From IMG/VR virus record IMGVR_UViG_3300020183_000077, positions 1 to 62,070 of that record: a stretch of DNA of 62,070 nt; one strand, 5' to 3'. Shown in pieces: positions 18,703-61,234 of this stretch (positions within the stretch are counted from its first letter, which is position 1; every line of letters begins with the position of its first letter). The notes below the pieces were generated by a model. That model ran no database searches. It saw only the letters and a list, made by a program, of their open reading frames with translations, and was not told the DNA's origin. This DNA is from a virus. The position numbers were made by a program, and so were the translations under genes.

Positions 18703-19254
18703 ATGACTGATCAACCAAAAGAGTGGTGGCAACAGGGATACGGATTTAAAGTTCAAGCAGGAACGAAAATAAACGGTAAGGAAGTCGGTTATGGTGTGAT
18801 AACCGATGAGCATACTGGATATGCTTATTATAAAAATGGTGACAAATGGGATTTGTCTTTGAAAACTTCATTGGAAGTTTGTGGAAAAAAAGTAAATGAA
18901 AAAGAACCAGCAAAAATCATCTATGCAAAAAATGGTGACATTCACTTTGAAGCAGTGAATGGTCAAATTACTTTGAAAGCAAGAAGCATTCGTCTTGTTG
19001 CGGAAGATGGTGACGGGGAGGTTACTATTCAAGCAGGAAAGGTTGTTGAGATTGATGGTCCAACAAGTAGAATAAAAGGAACAAATATTGATATTCCTGC
19101 ACAAAATTCTGTTAATATTATGGGACAATATGTTGAAACTGCAGCAGGGGTACAAGAATCCAGTTCATCTTTAGTTGATATTTTCCAAGGTTCTTTTATT
19201 GGTCAAATTTTAAATTCACTTGGAAATTTGAAGAAGTTCTTACAATTGCTATAA
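18703..19254 (+). CDS. membrane-piercing spike, gp5 beta-helix-like
   Basis: 183 aa. The centre shows the repeating strands of a triple-stranded beta-helix as in the gp5 C domain and VgrG spikes: GDIHFEAVNGQITLKARSIR, then GDGEVTIQAGKVVEIDGPTS. N terminus is Trp-rich. The C terminus is a hydrophobic helix. It probably supplies the spike missing from the preceding gp5-like protein. Confidence 0.75.
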   Translation: MTDQPKEWWQQGYGFKVQAGTKINGKEVGYGVITDEHTGYAYYKNGDKWDLSLKTSLEVCGKKVNEKEPAKIIYAKNGDIHFEAVNGQITLKARSIRLVAEDGDGEVTIQAGKVVEIDGPTSRIKGTNIDIPAQNSVNIMGQYVETAAGVQESSSSLVDIFQGSFIGQILNSLGNLKKFLQLL

Positions 19255-54802: not shown

Positions 54803-55109
54803 CCTAATCAACAAACTACTTGCCATTTTTAATCTCAAACTTGTATCTACTAAACCTAATACAAGGTTGGTAAAGGAAACTGTAAAGTTTTTGAATCAAC
54901 ATAAAGATTATTGGAATGATGATGTTTTTTTCCCTCCTTATGTTGGAGATATTAACTATGTCCAAGAATGGGTGGAAGATGAGTTTCCGCAAGTTTCTGG
55001 TAAGACTTATGTTTGCGAACGAGTATTGGGAATAGAAGACAAGTATTATGATTATGAAGGAGATATATTTACTTCACAACAACTTCAAGAGAAATTGAAA
55101 AATGACTGA
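54795..55109 (+). CDS. hypothetical protein (104 aa)
   Basis: ATG 54795. Contains FLNQHKDYWNDDVFFPPYVG and TYVCERVLGIEDKYYDYEGD. Overlaps the previous and next genes by 8 bases each. Function unknown. Confidence 0.6.
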   Translation: MTNLINKLLAIFNLKLVSTKPNTRLVKETVKFLNQHKDYWNDDVFFPPYVGDINYVQEWVEDEFPQVSGKTYVCERVLGIEDKYYDYEGDIFTSQQLQEKLKND

Positions 55110-55470
55110 AGAATCTAAAAACAAAAAAGATTTCATGAAATCCATGCAGGAATGGTGGGACTCTGATGCTTGCAAAGAACTTCAAAAGGCAAATGAAGAA
55201 TCAAAGCAACGAGCAGTAGGAAAGTATTTTATGCTTTCTGAATCTGATAAACTTGATATGGTTCAGGCAATCTGCTACATTTTGTGTAAGGCAGAAAGTG
55301 AAGGAACGAGTCATCGTGGTCTTCAAGATGCTCTAGGACTCTATCCTGCAGGTTTCTGGATTGATGGTCTCATGGAGGTTCATAATGCCCTGTGGGAGTA
55401 TTATCACGACGAGAAAAAAGAAAAACAACTCAAAGATGATCTAAATGCACTGGATGACTTTATTAAGTAA
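55102..55470 (+). CDS. conserved hypothetical protein (122 aa)
   Basis: Lys/Glu-rich N terminus, then KLDMVQAICYILCKAESEGT and LYPAGFWIDGLMEVHNALWE. All helical. No family recognised; regular presence in cyanomyoviruses is from memory. Confidence 0.65.
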   Translation: MTEESKNKKDFMKSMQEWWDSDACKELQKANEESKQRAVGKYFMLSESDKLDMVQAICYILCKAESEGTSHRGLQDALGLYPAGFWIDGLMEVHNALWEYYHDEKKEKQLKDDLNALDDFIK

Positions 55471-55522
55471 TGTAACGTGATCCCGAAGAAAACATTAAGT
55501 TAATAGATACTAATGTATTATA

Positions 55523-55765
55523 ATGCTAACATTTAGAAACATCGCAAACGACCCTATGACCCTTGCAAAGACTGGACCCGAAACTCTTTCACAAGAAGAG
55601 TGGAACGAACTTGTAGCACTTAAAGACGCTATTAACCAAAATCCAGCTGCAGTTCATCCTGATAAGATGGAACTCTTCACTAAACTTCTTGTCAAATCTT
55701 GGGATGCAAAATGTGAACCTACCAATACAAGTGTGTGGAGAACTGGTCACCCATTAGAAGAATGA
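55523..55765 (+). CDS. hypothetical protein (80 aa)
   Basis: MLTFRNIANDPMTLAKTGPE then LSQEEWNELVALKDAINQNP. Helical, polar. Overlaps a small coiled-coil gene by ATGATG. Function unknown. Confidence 0.6.
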   Translation: MLTFRNIANDPMTLAKTGPETLSQEEWNELVALKDAINQNPAAVHPDKMELFTKLLVKSWDAKCEPTNTSVWRTGHPLEE

Positions 55766-55905
55766 TGGAAAAAACTGTAGAGCAACTTCTAAAAGAATTA
55801 GAAGAACTTAAAATACGAGTTGCAATTTTAGAAGAAGATACTAAAGTACTTCAAGTGCAACTTGATTTAACACAGGAATCAATAGATGCAGTATTTGACC
55901 TCTGA
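55762..55905 (+). CDS. small coiled-coil protein (47 aa)
   Basis: Starts ATGATG at 55762/55765, giving 47 or 46 residues. Nearly one continuous helix (VEQLLKELEELKIRVAILEE). The late box follows its stop, so it ends the early block. Function unknown. Confidence 0.55.
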   Translation: MMEKTVEQLLKELEELKIRVAILEEDTKVLQVQLDLTQESIDAVFDL

Positions 55906-55933
55906 TAAATAATAGAAGGTATTTTTGTAGTTA
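55904..55933 (+). promoter_or_regulatory. late promoter of the CTS gene cluster
   Basis: GATAAATA (55904-55911), then TTTTTGTAGTTA (55922-55933) immediately before ATG 55935. Confidence 0.55.
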
Positions 55934-55934
55934 A

Positions 55935-56795
55935 ATGCTTTCTGAAGGTAGAAAAAGAGACACAGCGGCAAATGCGATATTAGGACTTGCATTTGCTGCT
56001 AATGCCGCACAATCCCCAGAAGACTTTGTAAGATCTGGTCATATTGAATCTCCAGGTGTCGTTCAGATGCAGAGAACCTTTGGAAATCCAAGAAAGAAAC
56101 CAAAAGATTTGGATAAAGAACCAGTAACAAGAAGAGGAATTAAATTAAAAGAAGGAAAGACTTTTAAACAGTTCTTAGAAGAAGCATATTTGATTGAAGC
56201 AAGAAGATTCGTTACAAGAGATGAGGCACAATCAAAGTTTGATAAACTTTCTCCAGAAGAGAGAGAAAAAAGAGAGCTTAGAAATTCTGGAGCAAATCAC
56301 GGTGGGTGGGGAACTAAATTAAAAGATTCACTTAAAAAACAAAGGAAAAGAAGATCTCAAAGATTGAAACCACTAACACAAAATGAATTGGAAACTCACG
56401 CGAAAAGAACTTTAAGAAAAAATCCAAATGAACTAGCTGCTATTGCAGCAGATCGTGAAGAAGATGCAAGAGAGAAACAAAAAGCAGCAGCAAGAAGATT
56501 AACGAAAAAAACTGGAACCAAACACGTTGAAGATCATATTCAACCACTTCAACAAGATAAAAGAAAACCAGAAAATAGAGAACGATTTGAAAAAATAACT
56601 CCCAGTGATGCTTCATCAAATATACAAGTTACATCAGAACCAAAAAATTTAAGAAAGGGATCTAAACCACCTAGAATAGGGCAACGTGGTCACGGTACAA
56701 CAAGATCTGGTGCAATTAAACAAAGACTTGATAAAGCACAAAAGTTTTCAGATAAACTGGACAACCTTGTAAAACAAATAAAATCTGAAAGATAA
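55935..56795 (+). CDS. CTS-bearing HNH-type nuclease-like virion protein (286 aa)
   Basis: Residues 75-90 (KTFKQFLEEAYLIEAR) match the T4 capsid-targeting sequence type MKTYQEFIAEA but lie inside the protein, after a 74-residue N-terminal region. The C-terminal half is very basic. Residues about 195-245 look like an HNH core: KHVEDHIQPL, SNIQVTSEPKNLRKG, giving Asp-His, Asn and a second Asn in the usual spacing. A nuclease packaged in the head and injected with DNA is plausible; the link is inference. First gene of the CTS cluster; a late promoter is directly upstream. Confidence 0.6.
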   Translation: MLSEGRKRDTAANAILGLAFAANAAQSPEDFVRSGHIESPGVVQMQRTFGNPRKKPKDLDKEPVTRRGIKLKEGKTFKQFLEEAYLIEARRFVTRDEAQSKFDKLSPEEREKRELRNSGANHGGWGTKLKDSLKKQRKRRSQRLKPLTQNELETHAKRTLRKNPNELAAIAADREEDAREKQKAAARRLTKKTGTKHVEDHIQPLQQDKRKPENRERFEKITPSDASSNIQVTSEPKNLRKGSKPPRIGQRGHGTTRSGAIKQRLDKAQKFSDKLDNLVKQIKSER

Positions 56796-56798
56796 ATA
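56791..56798 (+). promoter_or_regulatory. putative late promoter
   Basis: GATAAATA followed by AATAAAAAA, the same longer sequence as before 58804; 21 bases before ATG 56820. Confidence 0.55.
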
Positions 56799-56819
56799 AA
56801 TAAAAAAGTCATAAAAAAG

Positions 56820-57284
56820 ATGAAGACCTTTAGAGAGTTTCTAGAAGAAGCATATCTCGTTGAGATGCGTAAAGAGGATGAAGTTAAAGGAGAAACTAAA
56901 ACTCCTCTTTATGTAAGTAAAACTTCTGGAAGAGTTGTGAAGAACCCTGAGACTGGTCGTTCAGAAGTTAAGAAATCAACAAGAACATCACTATCACCAA
57001 GAGCAGCAACTGGTAGAATGAAGCAGGGTATGAAAGACCCAACCAATCCTTATTCTGGTGGTATTGATATGCCTGGTGCTACTAGACACGCACACGGTGG
57101 TGGTGGAAGTGGAGCAAAAGCACCTGGAAGAAAGAGAGGTGTTGGTAAGATAGAACAGCAGAAAATTGATAAAGAAGTAAGAGATAGAGGTGAAAGACCA
57201 TTTAGTGCAGGTGCATCACCAGCAGAAAAAGTTGAATTGAGAAGAGCACAAAGAAGACGTTCGACTGGTAGTGGATATCGATGA
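56820..57284 (+). CDS. CTS-tagged basic internal-head protein (154 aa)
   Basis: N terminus MKTFREFLEEAYLVE is a capsid-targeting sequence; a prohead protease site of the L-x-E type would release the mature part. The rest is basic and Gly/Ser/Arg-rich (AHGGGGSGAKAPGRKRGVGK; RRAQRRRSTGSGYR) and could bind DNA. No enzyme fold is seen. Coupled to the next gene by ATGA. Confidence 0.7.
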   Translation: MKTFREFLEEAYLVEMRKEDEVKGETKTPLYVSKTSGRVVKNPETGRSEVKKSTRTSLSPRAATGRMKQGMKDPTNPYSGGIDMPGATRHAHGGGGSGAKAPGRKRGVGKIEQQKIDKEVRDRGERPFSAGASPAEKVELRRAQRRRSTGSGYR

Positions 57285-57661
57285 AAACCTTTAGAGAGTT
57301 TCTAGAAGAAGCAAAGGCACCAAAACCTGATGCTCTAAAAACAATTCAAAGAAAAACAAAAGGAAGAACACCAGGAATGAAGTATGTTGTTCATACTACA
57401 AGTTCTGGTGATATTCGTGTAGATAACATTGAAGTTCCAGAGAATCAAAGAGGCAAGGGTATTGCAAAAAGAACATTTAAAGGACTTCATAACTATGCAG
57501 ATAAGATTGGCAAAAATGTTTCTTTAACTCCAGTTGCAAAACCAGGATATAAAGAAAAATTAGACAAGATGTATAGAAACCTAGGTTATCGGGACCGCAC
57601 ACCTTCAGATAACATTGCTGGTGCAGATACAATGATTCGCACACCCAAGGAGAAAAAATGA
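57281..57661 (+). CDS. CTS-tagged GNAT-family acetyltransferase (126 aa)
   Basis: N terminus MKTFREFLEEAKAPK is a CTS. Residues about 35-110 are a GNAT core: IRVDNIEVPENQRGKGIAKR (the Q/R-x-x-G-x-A acetyl-CoA loop), TFKGLHNYADKIG and KLDKMYRNLGYRDR. It would acetylate an amine using acetyl-CoA, potentially a host protein after injection. Short for GNAT but with the key loop. ATGA overlaps on both sides. Confidence 0.72.
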   Translation: MKTFREFLEEAKAPKPDALKTIQRKTKGRTPGMKYVVHTTSSGDIRVDNIEVPENQRGKGIAKRTFKGLHNYADKIGKNVSLTPVAKPGYKEKLDKMYRNLGYRDRTPSDNIAGADTMIRTPKEKK

Positions 57662-57933
57662 AGACATTTAAACAGTTTATTGCAGAAACAGATTTATCTG
57701 CTCTTGGTGCTGATATTGCAGCAAAAGCAAAAAGGGAAAAACCTGCTGTAAACAAACCAGATTTTGGTAGTAGTCAGAGTGAACCAAAGGCACCAACTAA
57801 TGCTGCTCCCGTTGTCGCATCTGCTGTAAATCGAGCAACTGGTGGGTATGCTGGTGCTGTTGCAAATACTGCAAAAAATGTAGTTAATACTGCAACAAAG
57901 TCAGTTGTTCGTGGAGCATTTAGAAGAGTATGA
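57658..57933 (+). CDS. CTS-tagged Ala-rich internal-head protein (91 aa)
   Basis: MKTFKQFIAETDLSALG is a CTS. The remainder is Ala/Val/Pro-rich and low in complexity (AAPVVASAVNRATGGYAGAV), ending in a basic FRRV. Likely packaged or injected; function unknown. Coupled by ATGA overlaps to both neighbours. Confidence 0.65.
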   Translation: MKTFKQFIAETDLSALGADIAAKAKREKPAVNKPDFGSSQSEPKAPTNAAPVVASAVNRATGGYAGAVANTAKNVVNTATKSVVRGAFRRV

Positions 57934-58778
57934 AAACGTATCAAGAGTTCATAACTGAAGCAAAGAAGTGTTGGCCTGGATATAAGAAAAAGGGAACACA
58001 AAAACTCTTTGGGAAGACTTATAATCGTTGTGTGAAAGAAGATATTGAAGAACTTGAAGAGAGTTCAATGGGTGAGAGAAGTGGTAGAAGAACACGAGGT
58101 AAACTAACTCTTGCCCGTGGTCGTGGTGCTGATATGGACCGTGAAGAAAGAACTACTGCTGCGATTGCAAAGAAAGCAGGTCTCAAAGGAACTGGTAAGT
58201 ATTCCACCAAAGATTTGAGAACCAAAGCAAAAGATTATACGACTTATGATAGTGATGATACTGATGATGATTATGGTAGCACCGAGCAGGACCATTACAT
58301 CCGCACTCACTCTTCTGCAAGAAAAGCAGCAAAGGGTGAGCATCTAATCAAGAAATACAAACCAGCAGGAAGAACTGCAACTGGAATGACTAAACTCAAG
58401 ACTGCACCTTCAAGTGAAAGTGTAAGAAGAGTGAAGGACTTGAAAAAGAATATGACTAAAGCAGGTGCTAATAAGAGAGGTCCAGTTCATACTGTTGATA
58501 TTATGCATCGTGATAGTGATGTTGGAAAAGGTGATAAGGACCAACAAATGGAGAGAGGTAGAAACTTCATTCAAGCACTAAAAGATACTCCAAAGCATCT
58601 TAAAAGAGCAGGTGCAAAGAAAGGTGAGGCAGTAGTTGGAAAACCAACTGCTGTTATGTCTGGTGAAGACCAGAAGACTGGAGTAGCAAAGAGAGCAAAA
58701 CTTTATAAGAAAGTGTTTGGTAAGAGAAGTAGTAAAAAGTCTGAAAAGACTGGAATTATGACAGGTAAAGTGGATTGA
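57930..58778 (+). CDS. CTS-tagged basic internal-head protein with WPGY element (282 aa)
   Basis: MKTYQEFITEA is nearly identical to the T4 CTS. Next comes KKCWPGYKKKGTQKLFGKTY, an element that recurs in cyanophage virion proteins, then NRCVKEDIEEL, a possible second cleavage point. The rest is very basic (Lys, Arg) with an acidic YDSDDTDDDYGSTEQ insert. Probably a DNA-associated internal protein. Last member of the coupled series. Confidence 0.7.
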   Translation: MKTYQEFITEAKKCWPGYKKKGTQKLFGKTYNRCVKEDIEELEESSMGERSGRRTRGKLTLARGRGADMDREERTTAAIAKKAGLKGTGKYSTKDLRTKAKDYTTYDSDDTDDDYGSTEQDHYIRTHSSARKAAKGEHLIKKYKPAGRTATGMTKLKTAPSSESVRRVKDLKKNMTKAGANKRGPVHTVDIMHRDSDVGKGDKDQQMERGRNFIQALKDTPKHLKRAGAKKGEAVVGKPTAVMSGEDQKTGVAKRAKLYKKVFGKRSSKKSEKTGIMTGKVD

Positions 58779-58786
58779 GATAAATA
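58779..58786 (+). promoter_or_regulatory. putative late promoter
   Basis: GATAAATA followed by AATAAAAAA, as at 56791; 17 bases before ATG 58804. Confidence 0.55.
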
Positions 58787-58803
58787 AATAAAAAACTATA
58801 AAT

Positions 58804-59685
58804 ATGGATTCCCAAGACTTACGCAATCTTCAAGAAGCATATTCTAGTGTTTATGAACAGCAGATTGGTGTTCCCCTAAAGGACGCATCTGACCGTGCTG
58901 CAAAGGACCAACTTAAGAAAATGATTCCGAAGGGAGAAAAGGTATATACTCCTAAAGCAACACTACAAAATGCTGCTTATGAACCAGAGGGTGAAGAAAT
59001 TAATGAGGACATCAGAGATAGAGATATAAATGCAAGAGGTGGATTTGACCCAAGATTTGATAAAAGACCAACAACTACTGGTAGTGGACAAGTCAGAACT
59101 CCTGGTGGACCTGTAAAAACTCCTGGTGGTCCAGTGACAACTCCAAGACCAACAGGACCAGGACCAGTAGCACAAGCACCAAAACCTGCTGGTGGTTTAC
59201 TTGGAACATTGGATAAAACTGCTAGAGATACTGCTGGTAGAGTTGGCGAAACTATTGGTAGAACTGAAGCAGGTAAACTTCCTGGTGCAAATCTTCCTAT
59301 TCTTGGTAATGTGATTAAAAATGAAGGTGGAAGAAGAGGAAGAAACCAAGGACAACAGATGTATGATAAAGCAAAAAAAACTGTTGGTGGTCTTCTACAG
59401 CAAGATTATGAACCAGATGCTTTTGATGTAATCCTTGAGTATCTAGTTGCAGAAGGTTATGCAGATACTAATGAGAATGCATTAGTGATTATGGCTAATA
59501 TGAGTGAAGAGTGGAGAGAAATTATTCTTGAGTATGTTGGTGGTGGAGGTGCAGCACCTAATGCTCCTGGTGGTGTTGTAAGTGCAGTTGATAAATTAGG
59601 TAGTATGTTCTCAAAGGTAGCACCTAAGAAACCAGTGAAAAAACAAACACCAGATGGGTTCAAACCATATCAAAAGTTTAACTGA
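58804..59685 (+). CDS. virion protein with variant head-targeting N terminus and YAD module (293 aa)
   Basis: N terminus MDSQDLRNLQEAYSSVYEQQ is a second type of conserved leader in cyanophage virion proteins. The middle is Pro/Gly/Thr-rich (RTPGGPVKTPGGPVTTPRPT). Residues about 200-245 carry the helical module FDVILEYLVAEGYADTNENA, LVIMANMSEEWREIIL, also present in the 52-aa protein at 60423. Probably another head-packaged protein. A terminator follows. Confidence 0.65.
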   Translation: MDSQDLRNLQEAYSSVYEQQIGVPLKDASDRAAKDQLKKMIPKGEKVYTPKATLQNAAYEPEGEEINEDIRDRDINARGGFDPRFDKRPTTTGSGQVRTPGGPVKTPGGPVTTPRPTGPGPVAQAPKPAGGLLGTLDKTARDTAGRVGETIGRTEAGKLPGANLPILGNVIKNEGGRRGRNQGQQMYDKAKKTVGGLLQQDYEPDAFDVILEYLVAEGYADTNENALVIMANMSEEWREIILEYVGGGGAAPNAPGGVVSAVDKLGSMFSKVAPKKPVKKQTPDGFKPYQKFN

Positions 59686-59707
59686 GACAATCCTAGAACT
59701 GTCCCCA

Positions 59708-59730
59708 GACCCCACAAGGGGTCTTTTTTT
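59708..59730 (+). terminator. strong intrinsic terminator
   Basis: GACCCC (59708-59713), loop ACAA, GGGGTC (59718-59723), then seven T. Confidence 0.92.
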
Positions 59731-59734
59731 GTGC

Positions 59735-59740
59735 TACAAT
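59735..59740 (+). promoter_or_regulatory. extended -10 promoter
   Basis: GTGCTACAAT directly after the terminator, 21 bases before ATG 59762. Confidence 0.5.
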
Positions 59741-59761
59741 ATTCTCAATCACAAGACTCCT

Positions 59762-60169
59762 ATGGAACTTACAGTTATTGCAATCAAACGTGAAGATGGT
59801 CTGTATCATTTCGACCATCCCCATAATGACACAGTTGAAGAACTGCTGATGAATGGAACTGAAGAAGCAATTGATGAGCATTGCTACTTCAAGACTGGAA
59901 AGTATCCAATTGAGGGTGATGAAGTTGAGATTTCTCTCTTCCTTGAAGAACCTGCTGATTATGATACTCTTCTTGTAAAAGAAGTATCTGATGAAGAAGG
60001 AACAACTTATACTGATACAACAATGTGTGTTCCTGTTTGGTTGTGTCCTTGGTTGCAGGGATTCTTTGGTGAAGTTCCTGATGAGATTTATATCAAAGTG
60101 CGTCCAATCAATAAAGGTCTTGAGTCTTTTGTTGCTGCAACTGGTATGCGAGGATTTCTCAATAAATAA
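59762..60169 (+). CDS. hypothetical protein (135 aa)
   Basis: MELTVIAIKREDGLYHFDHP start, Glu-rich, with IYIKVRPINKGLESFVAATG at the end. No family recognised. ATG 59762 chosen because upstream in-frame sequence lies in the terminator and promoter. Confidence 0.7.
   Translation: MELTVIAIKREDGLYHFDHPHNDTVEELLMNGTEEAIDEHCYFKTGKYPIEGDEVEISLFLEEPADYDTLLVKEVSDEEGTTYTDTTMCVPVWLCPWLQGFFGEVPDEIYIKVRPINKGLESFVAATGMRGFLNK
60161..60168 (+). promoter_or_regulatory. putative late promoter
   Basis: AATAAATA overlapping the stop of the preceding gene, 10 bases before ATG 60179, rather close. Confidence 0.35.
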
Positions 60170-60178
60170 AAGTAAAAA

Positions 60179-60418
60179 ATGAAAACTTTTAAAGAGTTTA
60201 TTTCTGAACATTGTGGTTGTGTAGACAATGCAGTTGGTGAACTTGAAGATGGACTCAAAAAGTTAAACGATACTTCTTATGATTCGATTGATAAATTGAT
60301 GCGTAAGATTATGAAAAAACATCAAATGAGTGCAAAAGAACTACATAATGCTTTTGTTGATACTCACGGTAAAATACCTGATGAGTGGATAAAACAAATA
60401 AATAAAAGAAAAAAGTAG
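60179..60418 (+). CDS. CTS-tagged small protein (79 aa)
   Basis: MKTFKEFISEHCGCVDNAVG has the CTS pattern, with a C-x-C after the putative cleavage region. The remainder is a helical domain (IDKLMRKIMKKHQMSAKELH) with a basic tail. Predicted internal-head protein. Followed by the 52-aa YAD-module protein. Confidence 0.65.
   Translation: MKTFKEFISEHCGCVDNAVGELEDGLKKLNDTSYDSIDKLMRKIMKKHQMSAKELHNAFVDTHGKIPDEWIKQINKRKK
60397..60404 (+). promoter_or_regulatory. putative late promoter
   Basis: AATAAATA inside the end of the preceding gene, 18 bases before ATG 60423. Confidence 0.4.
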
Positions 60419-60422
60419 TCAA

Positions 60423-60581
60423 ATGAAACCAACTCCAAGAGAATTGCAAGAAACTTATAAAACCTATGAAAGTCTTGTGGAGCATTTAATATCAGAAGGT
60501 TATGCAGATGATAAGAAATCTGCAGATAAGATTATTGAAGGAATGAGTCAAACCTGGTATAATCTTATCATCAACGACTGA
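60423..60581 (+). CDS. small YAD-module protein (52 aa)
   Basis: ATG 60423. ESLVEHLISEGYADDKKSAD then KIIEGMSQTWYNLI is the same module as near the C terminus of the 58804 protein (hydrophobic-EGYAD-A-I-MS-W-I). N terminus KPTPRELQETYKTYESL is leader-like. Probably packaged or scaffold-related. Function unknown. Confidence 0.6.
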   Translation: MKPTPRELQETYKTYESLVEHLISEGYADDKKSADKIIEGMSQTWYNLIIND

Positions 60582-60666: not shown

Positions 60667-60897
60667 ATGTCCTTGATTGAGTTCACTAATTCTTCTGCTA
60701 TCTCCAAGATTTCTTTCAATCACGATGATAGTGAGATTGGAGTTGCTTTTACTGCTAATCCTGATAAGTATTACTACTTCCAATGTGAAGATGTAGATAA
60801 CTTTGTTCAAAAGTTGGAAGAAACTGTAAATGCAAACGAGAGTCTCGGGAAGTTTATTTCTGGTCTTCGCAAAGATGGGACTTTGATTTCCGTTTGA
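60667..60897 (+). CDS. KTSC-domain protein (76 aa)
   Basis: Whole protein resembles the KTSC fold: SSAISKISFNHDDSEIGVAF, TANPDKYYYFQCEDVDNFVQ, ANESLGKFISGLRKDGTL. KTSC domains are found in lysyl-tRNA synthetases and phage proteins, usually of unknown role, possibly RNA-linked. Next to tRNA genes. Own promoter upstream. Confidence 0.65.
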   Translation: MSLIEFTNSSAISKISFNHDDSEIGVAFTANPDKYYYFQCEDVDNFVQKLEETVNANESLGKFISGLRKDGTLISV

Positions 60898-60936
60898 CAA
60901 AGAGTTCCAAGTCCTCTAGAATTGACTTGGATTTAT

Positions 60937-61024
60937 GGTCGTCAGAACAGGTGTTCAGAGGGGACTTATAATCCCTTTGCCCCAGATTAGGGCCTTTGGC
61001 AGGGTTCGATACCCTGGGCGACTA
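60937..61024 (+). tRNA. unusual tRNA-like gene, anticodon loop reads UAU (Ile?)
   Basis: Acceptor GGTCGTC (60937-60943) pairs with GGCGACT (61017-61023), discriminator A61024. The T arm is canonical: CAGGG, TTCGATA, CCCTG (61000-61016). Anticodon stem GGGGA / TCCCT (60960-60976), loop CTTATAA, anticodon TAT. But the D arm is short (60944-60959) and the variable region is 23 bases (60977-60999), with a GCCC/GGGC stem, as in class II tRNAs. Either an atypical or a degenerate tRNA. No CCA encoded. Confidence 0.55.
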
Positions 61025-61054
61025 TTTGCTATTCGTTATTTGCGAATAGCAAAT
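61024..61054. repeat. perfect 12-base inverted repeat between tRNA genes
   Basis: ATTTGCTATTCG (61024-61035) and CGAATAGCAAAT (61043-61054) form a 12-pair stem with a 7-base loop (TTATTTG). It fills the space between two tRNA genes and could be an RNA-processing or transcription-pausing element. Confidence 0.85.
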
Positions 61055-61127
61055 GCTCCTTTAGCTATCTGGTGAAAGCAATCGACTCATAATCGATGTG
61101 AGGTGGGTTCGATCCCCTCAAGGAGCA
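61055..61127 (+). tRNA. tRNA with CAU anticodon (Met, or Ile if modified)
   Basis: Class I tRNA, 73 bases. Acceptor GCTCCTT (61055-61061) / AAGGAGC (61120-61126), discriminator A. Anticodon stem ATCGA / TCGAT, loop CTCATAA, anticodon CAT. T arm GTGGG, TTCGATC, CCCTC with one T-T mismatch. Not initiator-like. Met elongator and lysidine-modified Ile tRNA cannot be separated by eye. CC follows the discriminator, but no complete CCA. Confidence 0.85.
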
Positions 61128-61132
61128 CCTAT

Positions 61133-61205
61133 GCCCGTGTAGTCCAGCGGAAGAGACAGAGGACTTAAAATCCTTCCAGGGTCGGTTCGAATCCGACCAC
61201 GGGTA
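61133..61205 (+). tRNA. tRNA with UAA anticodon (Leu), short variable loop
   Basis: 73 bases. Acceptor GCCCGTG (61133-61139) / CACGGGT (61198-61204), discriminator A. Anticodon stem GAGGA / TCCTT (61159-61175), loop CTTAAAA, anticodon TAA. T arm GTCGG, TTCGAAT, CCGAC. The variable loop is only 5 bases (CCAGG), unlike normal class II Leu tRNAs. Confidence 0.8.
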
Positions 61206-61234
61206 TTGCCTTCGGGCACTTTTTATGAAAACTT

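Follow-up and report, generated by a model that had tools for sequence, protein, structure and literature searches.

A cyanophage array of swappable genes with T4-type leaders, probably a counterpart of the T-even internal-protein locus

The 62,070-bp virus fragment IMGVR_UViG_3300020183_000077 from IMG/VR (the window, meaning this whole stretch of DNA) carries on its + strand an array of genes whose products bear a short peptide resembling the capsid-targeting sequence (CTS) of phage T4 internal proteins. A pattern search of the window for open reading frames (ORFs) opening with MKT[FY]xxF[IL]xE finds five, at positions 56820, 57281, 57658, 57930 and 60179, and a further copy, KTFKQFLEE at 56157, lies inside the ORF 55935-56795. 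The region 55935-60418 holds six leader genes (five N-terminal, one internal). All six of the leader sequences described in the original prediction are recovered, although its count of five genes was one short. The strict pattern never appears in 100 first-order Markov shuffles, a looser pattern is seen six times against 0.33 per shuffle, and reversing the leader DNA pattern yields 0 matches in each record searched.

Residues 4 and 7 of the 10-residue T4 IPIII leader mainly target the capsid, and residues 8 and 10 serve processing (PMC9026906). All six window leaders agree with the T4 CTS at these tested residues (aromatic at 4, F7, I/L at 8 and E10), the slot-1 leader doing so from an internal position, which bears out the proposed T4-type targeting leader at each functionally tested position. 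Applied to T4 as a control, the pattern picks two adjacent genes starting MKTYQEFIAEA, which we take to be the internal-protein genes, plus gp61.1. The latter (L062:1366-1530; T4 18966-19130) is a 54-residue hypothetical protein adjoining the primase gene, and its MKTFKEFIKE fits the pattern. The same search of T7, P-SSP7 and Syn5 gave no match.

The first gene of the array (slot 1, 55935..56795) is a fusion of a 73-residue N-terminal domain (MLSEG...), the internal leader GKTFKQFLEEA (56154..56186) and an HNH-like cargo (56187..56792). It is followed by a gene with leader MKTFREFLEEA and a basic cargo (family 10, MRKED...; 56820..57284), and by one with the leader MKTFREFLEEA and a GNAT acetyltransferase (57281..57661) that is present in 19/20 loci when the window is compared with 19 related loci. 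Next come the leader MKTFKQFIAET with a short basic cargo (57658..57933), for which neither family comparison of the loci nor a profile search found a relative, and the leader MKTYQEFITEA with a CWPGYKKKGTQKLFGKTYNRCVKE module and a basic cargo (family 3; 57930..58778). Overlaps of the form ATGA at 57281, 57658 and 57930 join 56820-58778 into one co-translated four-gene unit, as originally proposed. Two genes lacking an MKTF-type leader, 58804 and 59654, then interrupt the run before the sixth leader gene (60179..60418), which couples MKTFKEFISEH to a small cargo; a larger phage family (phrog_10346, E 4e-16) contains this cargo as one of its domains.

Array units are preceded by the motif NATAAATA, presumably the cyanophage late-promoter consensus. 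On the + strand of the window, 14 of its 18 occurrences fall between 12 and 45 bp ahead of a start, an interval covering 4.2% of the window (binomial p ~1e-16); unrelated control words matched in composition reach 1-2 there. The array starts so preceded are 55935, 56820, 58804, 60179 and 60423. Specifically, the motif scan places a late-promoter-like GATAAATA 31 bp ahead of 55935 (55904..55911), two overlapping motifs 25-29 bp ahead of 56820 (56791..56802), three ahead of 58804 (58779..58804) and one 18 bp ahead of 60179 (60161..60168). The genes look late, in keeping with the late expression originally predicted. The cargos (69-272 residues) have isoelectric points (pI) of 9.0-10.6, whereas the median for the window is 5.1; only 3 of the 39 other proteins exceed 9. 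The T4 internal proteins are likewise described as basic (PMC9026906).

A GNAT fold with an acetyl-CoA motif is supported for the 57281 cargo, and acetyl transfer is predicted. The best Protein Data Bank (PDB) matches of its structural model (predicted local distance difference test score (pLDDT) 79.6; predicted template modelling score 0.71) are GNATs, and its profile matches, with weak E-values, are all acetyltransferases or GNAT-type entries. The acetyl-CoA motif [QR]xxGx[GA] is kept in most members of the family; in the B23 member, K takes the place of its first Gly. From its DHI...N...NL motif and its relatives, the slot-1 cargo resembles an HNH or endonuclease VII-type protein: one relative in L138 matches phrog_1035 endonuclease VII (E 2e-4), and a related cargo in L014 matches HNH_2 (E 0.02). 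The model of this cargo is unreliable in the key segment (pLDDT ~40 over residues 121-180), and a PDB profile search with the cargo returned no match. Of the two enzyme folds originally recognized, the GNAT stands by model and profile, and the HNH-like one stays a matter of sequence motifs. In Pfam, the window cargos matched nothing above threshold, GNAT and DUF6717 being the only entries below it. Internal-head PHROG matches of the window leader proteins stop at about residue 20, and therefore these proteins are not IPI-III homologues but share their leader class.

The interrupting gene at 58804..59685 has its own type of leader, the second in the array (MDSQDLRNLQEAYSSVYE), and an EGYAD...MSEEW module at the C terminus. 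Its product starts MDSQDLRNLQE↓AYSSVYE (arrows here and below mark putative cut positions), and this leader (MDSQDLRNLQEAY) differs from the MKTF type; its general form is MDxxxLRNLQEAYxxVY, with L-Q-E↓A. A cargo beginning GKVPWNDP... stands behind MDVQTLRNLQEAY in L020:16-738 and MKTYQQFMIEAQ in L026:3103-3507, and behind MKTYQEFISEA plus a CWPGY module in L151:1027-2349 (L151 versus L020, 65.7% over 166 residues, E 2e-54). Such an arrangement suggests two leaders that are exchangeable before one cargo and do the same job, the second being a possible further capsid address. A 52-residue gene at 60423..60581 consists of an EGYAD...MSQTW module standing alone, and the other interrupting gene, 59654..60169, encodes an acidic protein of the downstream flank that is DUF6717-like below the Pfam cut-off.

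A search for the cluster in other cyanophages, proposed with the original prediction, yields the 19 related loci, in which leader genes lie between conserved flanks and vary in number, order and identity. In the window these flanks are the genes 55102-55470 and 55523-55765 upstream (55102..55765, + strand; families 14 and 6, kept in 10/20 and 13/20 loci) and 60667..60897 downstream (+ strand; family 2, 16/20 loci). Directly beyond, at 60936-61206, come three genes for tRNAs, one each for Ile (anticodon TAT), Met and Leu. Across 15 contigs, only two of 49 leader starts fall outside this one locus. Slot 1 is usually a domain of 72-73 residues, starting M[IL]xE[GA], fused in frame to a leader and one of several cargos. 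A misplaced start codon was considered for 55935 and rejected, because the N-terminal domain is fused in frame ahead of the leader in most related loci, several of which have no Met at the junction. In L027, the slot-1 cargo of the window is a stand-alone gene starting MKTFQKFIAEA.

Cargos are exchanged at the leader. L014 and L020 share 94.5% identity over 4.8 kb, ending at the leader's end with its short extension (MKTFKEFVEEAYLVE); beyond it the cargos are unrelated, and alignment returns at the GNAT gene's ATG. L025 and L026 diverge at nucleotide 30 of a leader. When all pairs are taken together, 331 alignments start in the array, 178 of them at a leader where 42 would be expected, a descriptive count given that the pairs are non-independent. 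Within the window, the leaders of 56820 and 57281 are identical in 10 of 11 codons, followed by 21% identity over the next 33 nucleotides. L015 has its GNAT fused behind another cargo with only LEEA left of the GNAT leader, and thus a possible cut site remains. In L017:6372-8204, the 57930 family is duplicated in one 610-residue ORF whose copies are joined at QELEESS, itself an L-x-E site. On our reading, the leader is a probable seam at which any cargo taken up stays joined in frame to an address tag.

The leader peptide is also conserved in alignments. Among 13 aligned GNATs (33-95% identity to the window protein), M1, K2, T3, F7 and E10 are invariant, and among 14 aligned slot-1 proteins the leader residues K, T, F, F and E make up five of the eight invariant columns. 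Because both sets were partly collected by leader-based patterns, cleaner evidence comes from GNATs found by whole-protein search, those of S-CRM01 (AEC53131; MKTFDEFLTE) and Synechococcus phage B23 (MKTYSQFITE).

The T4 prohead protease, gp21, is encoded by the longer same-lineage contigs G001, G002, G009 and G013 (Peptidase_S77, best E 5e-43). Candidate L/I-x-E sites occupy the expected places in this lineage's head genes, whose names (gp20-gp23) were assigned from position and sequence: gp23 has NLME↓AP and gp22 starts MSRGDLQE↓M. Next to gp20/gp21 in the head operon, a conserved small protein (phrog_1742) starts MKSFKQFISE↓S, another leader of the capsid-targeting type (L039:3003-3320, L040:8192-8512, L069 and L077).

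Leader-tagged proteins occur elsewhere in phages. The cytidylyltransferase T4-GC190 was detected in purified S-SM1 virions by Sullivan et al. (PMC3037559), and its N termini are MKKFSAFLNE↓AERSF in S-SM1 (L198:1757-2920), MKKFSAFLSE↓A in Syn9, MKSFFQFLSE↓A in S-SM2 and MKSFSQFLTE↓T in P-SSM2, the GC190 genes of the latter three phages lying at L199:1262-2488, L200:1144-2418 and L202:1236-2384. Genes resembling ADP-ribosyltransferases (ARTs) carry the leader in L086:3736-4152, L143:10310-10873, L180:9845-10408 and L173:962-1507, and in the first three they stand directly ahead of a GNAT gene; one member matches Pfam PARP below the cut-off (E 4e-4), and the ART-like profile found a single chance-level match in the PDB (E 0.31). 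Cyanophage T4-GC119 proteins between gp16 and gp17 (L003:6774-8363, L004:6543-8669 and L038:1309-2481) appear to be mosaics built from small Cys/Lys-rich modules (CWPGYKKKGTQKLFGKTYNRCV is one), which are also found as separate small leader-tagged proteins; the L038 homologue itself starts MKNFKEFIDE. Other leader-tagged enzymes in IMG/VR are a nucleotidyltransferase with a zeta-toxin-like kinase (L083:11227-12507), a kinase (L126:7821-9002), a lytic transglycosylase fold (L084:5135-5554), a glucosaminidase (L170:6250-7065) and a deoxyribonucleotidase-like protein (L091:519-1097). A literature search outside subscription papers found no paper tying these leaders to capsid targeting in cyanophages, and a text search of papers for the leader string gave no match.

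We consider the array to be, with a probability of roughly 0.72, the cyanophage equivalent of the hypervariable internal-protein locus found in T-even phages, encoding leader-packaged, gp21-cut, ejected and exchangeable cargos. In this model, the product of each late gene would be a small basic cargo joined to a capsid-targeting leader, which would bring the cargo into the prohead core, where gp21 would cut after L/I-x-E. The cargo would remain with the DNA and be ejected into the host. The leader would double as an exchange seam between phages, a new cargo staying in frame with the address tag. We infer that the cargos most likely serve to neutralize host defence early or to modify proteins of the host, which for the GNAT would mean acetylating them. 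By analogy, the best precedent for the defence step is provided by T4 Ip1-3: these proteins block type IV restriction, each acting against a GmrSD enzyme of its own (PMC12373910).

Several observations weigh against this model. The array proteins are known from genes alone, not from virions, and there is no gp21 match within the window. The S-SRM01 relatives of the 57930 protein (L005:6832-8675, tandem and ATGA-linked) start MKTFQEFQES, lacking a clean L/I-x-E. PADLOC and Pfam give the array proteins no counter-defence match, the sole PADLOC match (LmuA, E 0.009) being weak and meaningless, and several leader genes elsewhere show no sign of host-directed function.

Of the alternatives, the one with an appreciable, though distinctly smaller, chance is that the cargos are packaged through the leader but serve only head assembly or DNA condensation, as IPIII partly does, rather than acting as effectors. 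IPIII mutants assemble heads poorly (PMC9026906), and the array cargos are very basic. However, assembly parts should not swap freely, yet cargos differ between near-identical phages, and one cargo is a GNAT that retains its acetyl-CoA motif.

It is improbable that the leader is mainly a recombination seam or the border of a selfish cassette whose capsid targeting has been lost. The concentration of breakpoints at leaders, and the near-identity of two window leaders at the codon level, are what such a seam would leave; but the peptide, and not DNA alone, is conserved at the exact T4 functional positions in the divergent, non-array GNATs of S-CRM01 and B23, and the late-type motifs and basic cargos would go unexplained. 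A marginally poorer prospect is a leader that addresses another late structure, such as the tail or baseplate. The two leader genes of B23 (gp252 and gp253) do adjoin baseplate gene 25, but others are neighbours of gp20/gp21 or stand between gp16 and gp17, and an L/I-x-E site would be useless in tails. Chance likeness of short N termini is scarcely credible even for so short and simple a motif, which is absent from shuffles and reversed controls, occurs six times in 4.5 kb and recurs in relatives.

The internal-protein reading thus retains what the original prediction drew from the DNA letters and adds to it a probable mechanism of variation, through cargo swapping at the leader, together with the slot-1 fusion, another class of leader and a virion-detected relative, GC190. 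A bolder proposal, which we hold tentatively and at somewhat below even odds, is that cyanophages possess a plug-in delivery system in which two interchangeable tags (MKTFxxFIxE and MDxxxLRNLQEAY) and gp21-cut multi-product fusions supply swappable GNAT, ART-like and nuclease-like enzymes, injected to disarm or reprogram the cyanobacterial host; the GNAT-ART pairing that giant polyvalent proteins provide in other phages would here be reached by tagging. Injected effectors have so far been worked out mostly in coliphages, and cyanophages are abundant aquatic phages whose counter-defence is little known. A recognizable tag offers a direct way to list candidate injected cyanophage proteins and a new reading of existing virion proteomics, as for GC190, while the swapping of cargos precisely at this point illustrates how a repertoire can be renewed fast yet stay deliverable.

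Judged from sequence, architecture and leader place the locus among the T-even internal-protein loci; cargo homology does not. The T-even loci, reportedly described as hypervariable by Repoila et al. in 1994 (cited in PMC12373910), share with the array a leader of 10-11 residues whose functional positions agree, cargos that are small and basic, and variable gene content at a fixed site, and the window's lineage has T4-type head genes. Unlike IPI-IPIII, however, the array has unrelated cargos that include a GNAT and an HNH-like protein, an in-frame fused first gene, late-type motifs before its units and a cyanophage host group.

Among the matches listed for the GNAT model, the anti-CRISPR AcrVA5, also a small GNAT, has the highest template modelling score normalized by target length (0.62-0.63), but its identity to the window protein is ~15%, and AcrVA5 is not known to carry such a leader. 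T4 Alt is a packaged ART, and a head-carried, injected enzyme that modifies host proteins is the role proposed here, with ART-like leader genes beside the GNAT in L086, L143 and L180; in contrast, the window carries a GNAT instead of an ART, and Alt is far larger. Polyvalent proteins, predicted to be injected, typically pair a GNAT family with an ART (Iyer et al. 2017, PMC5512222). The window GNAT family matches part of one 3,925-residue phage protein family (phrog_10691), although polyvalent proteins gather many domains in one giant chain whereas the array has single domains, each tagged. Finally, T4-GC190 is a single core gene elsewhere in the genome, outside the array, but it bears the same leader type on a protein detected in cyanophage virions.

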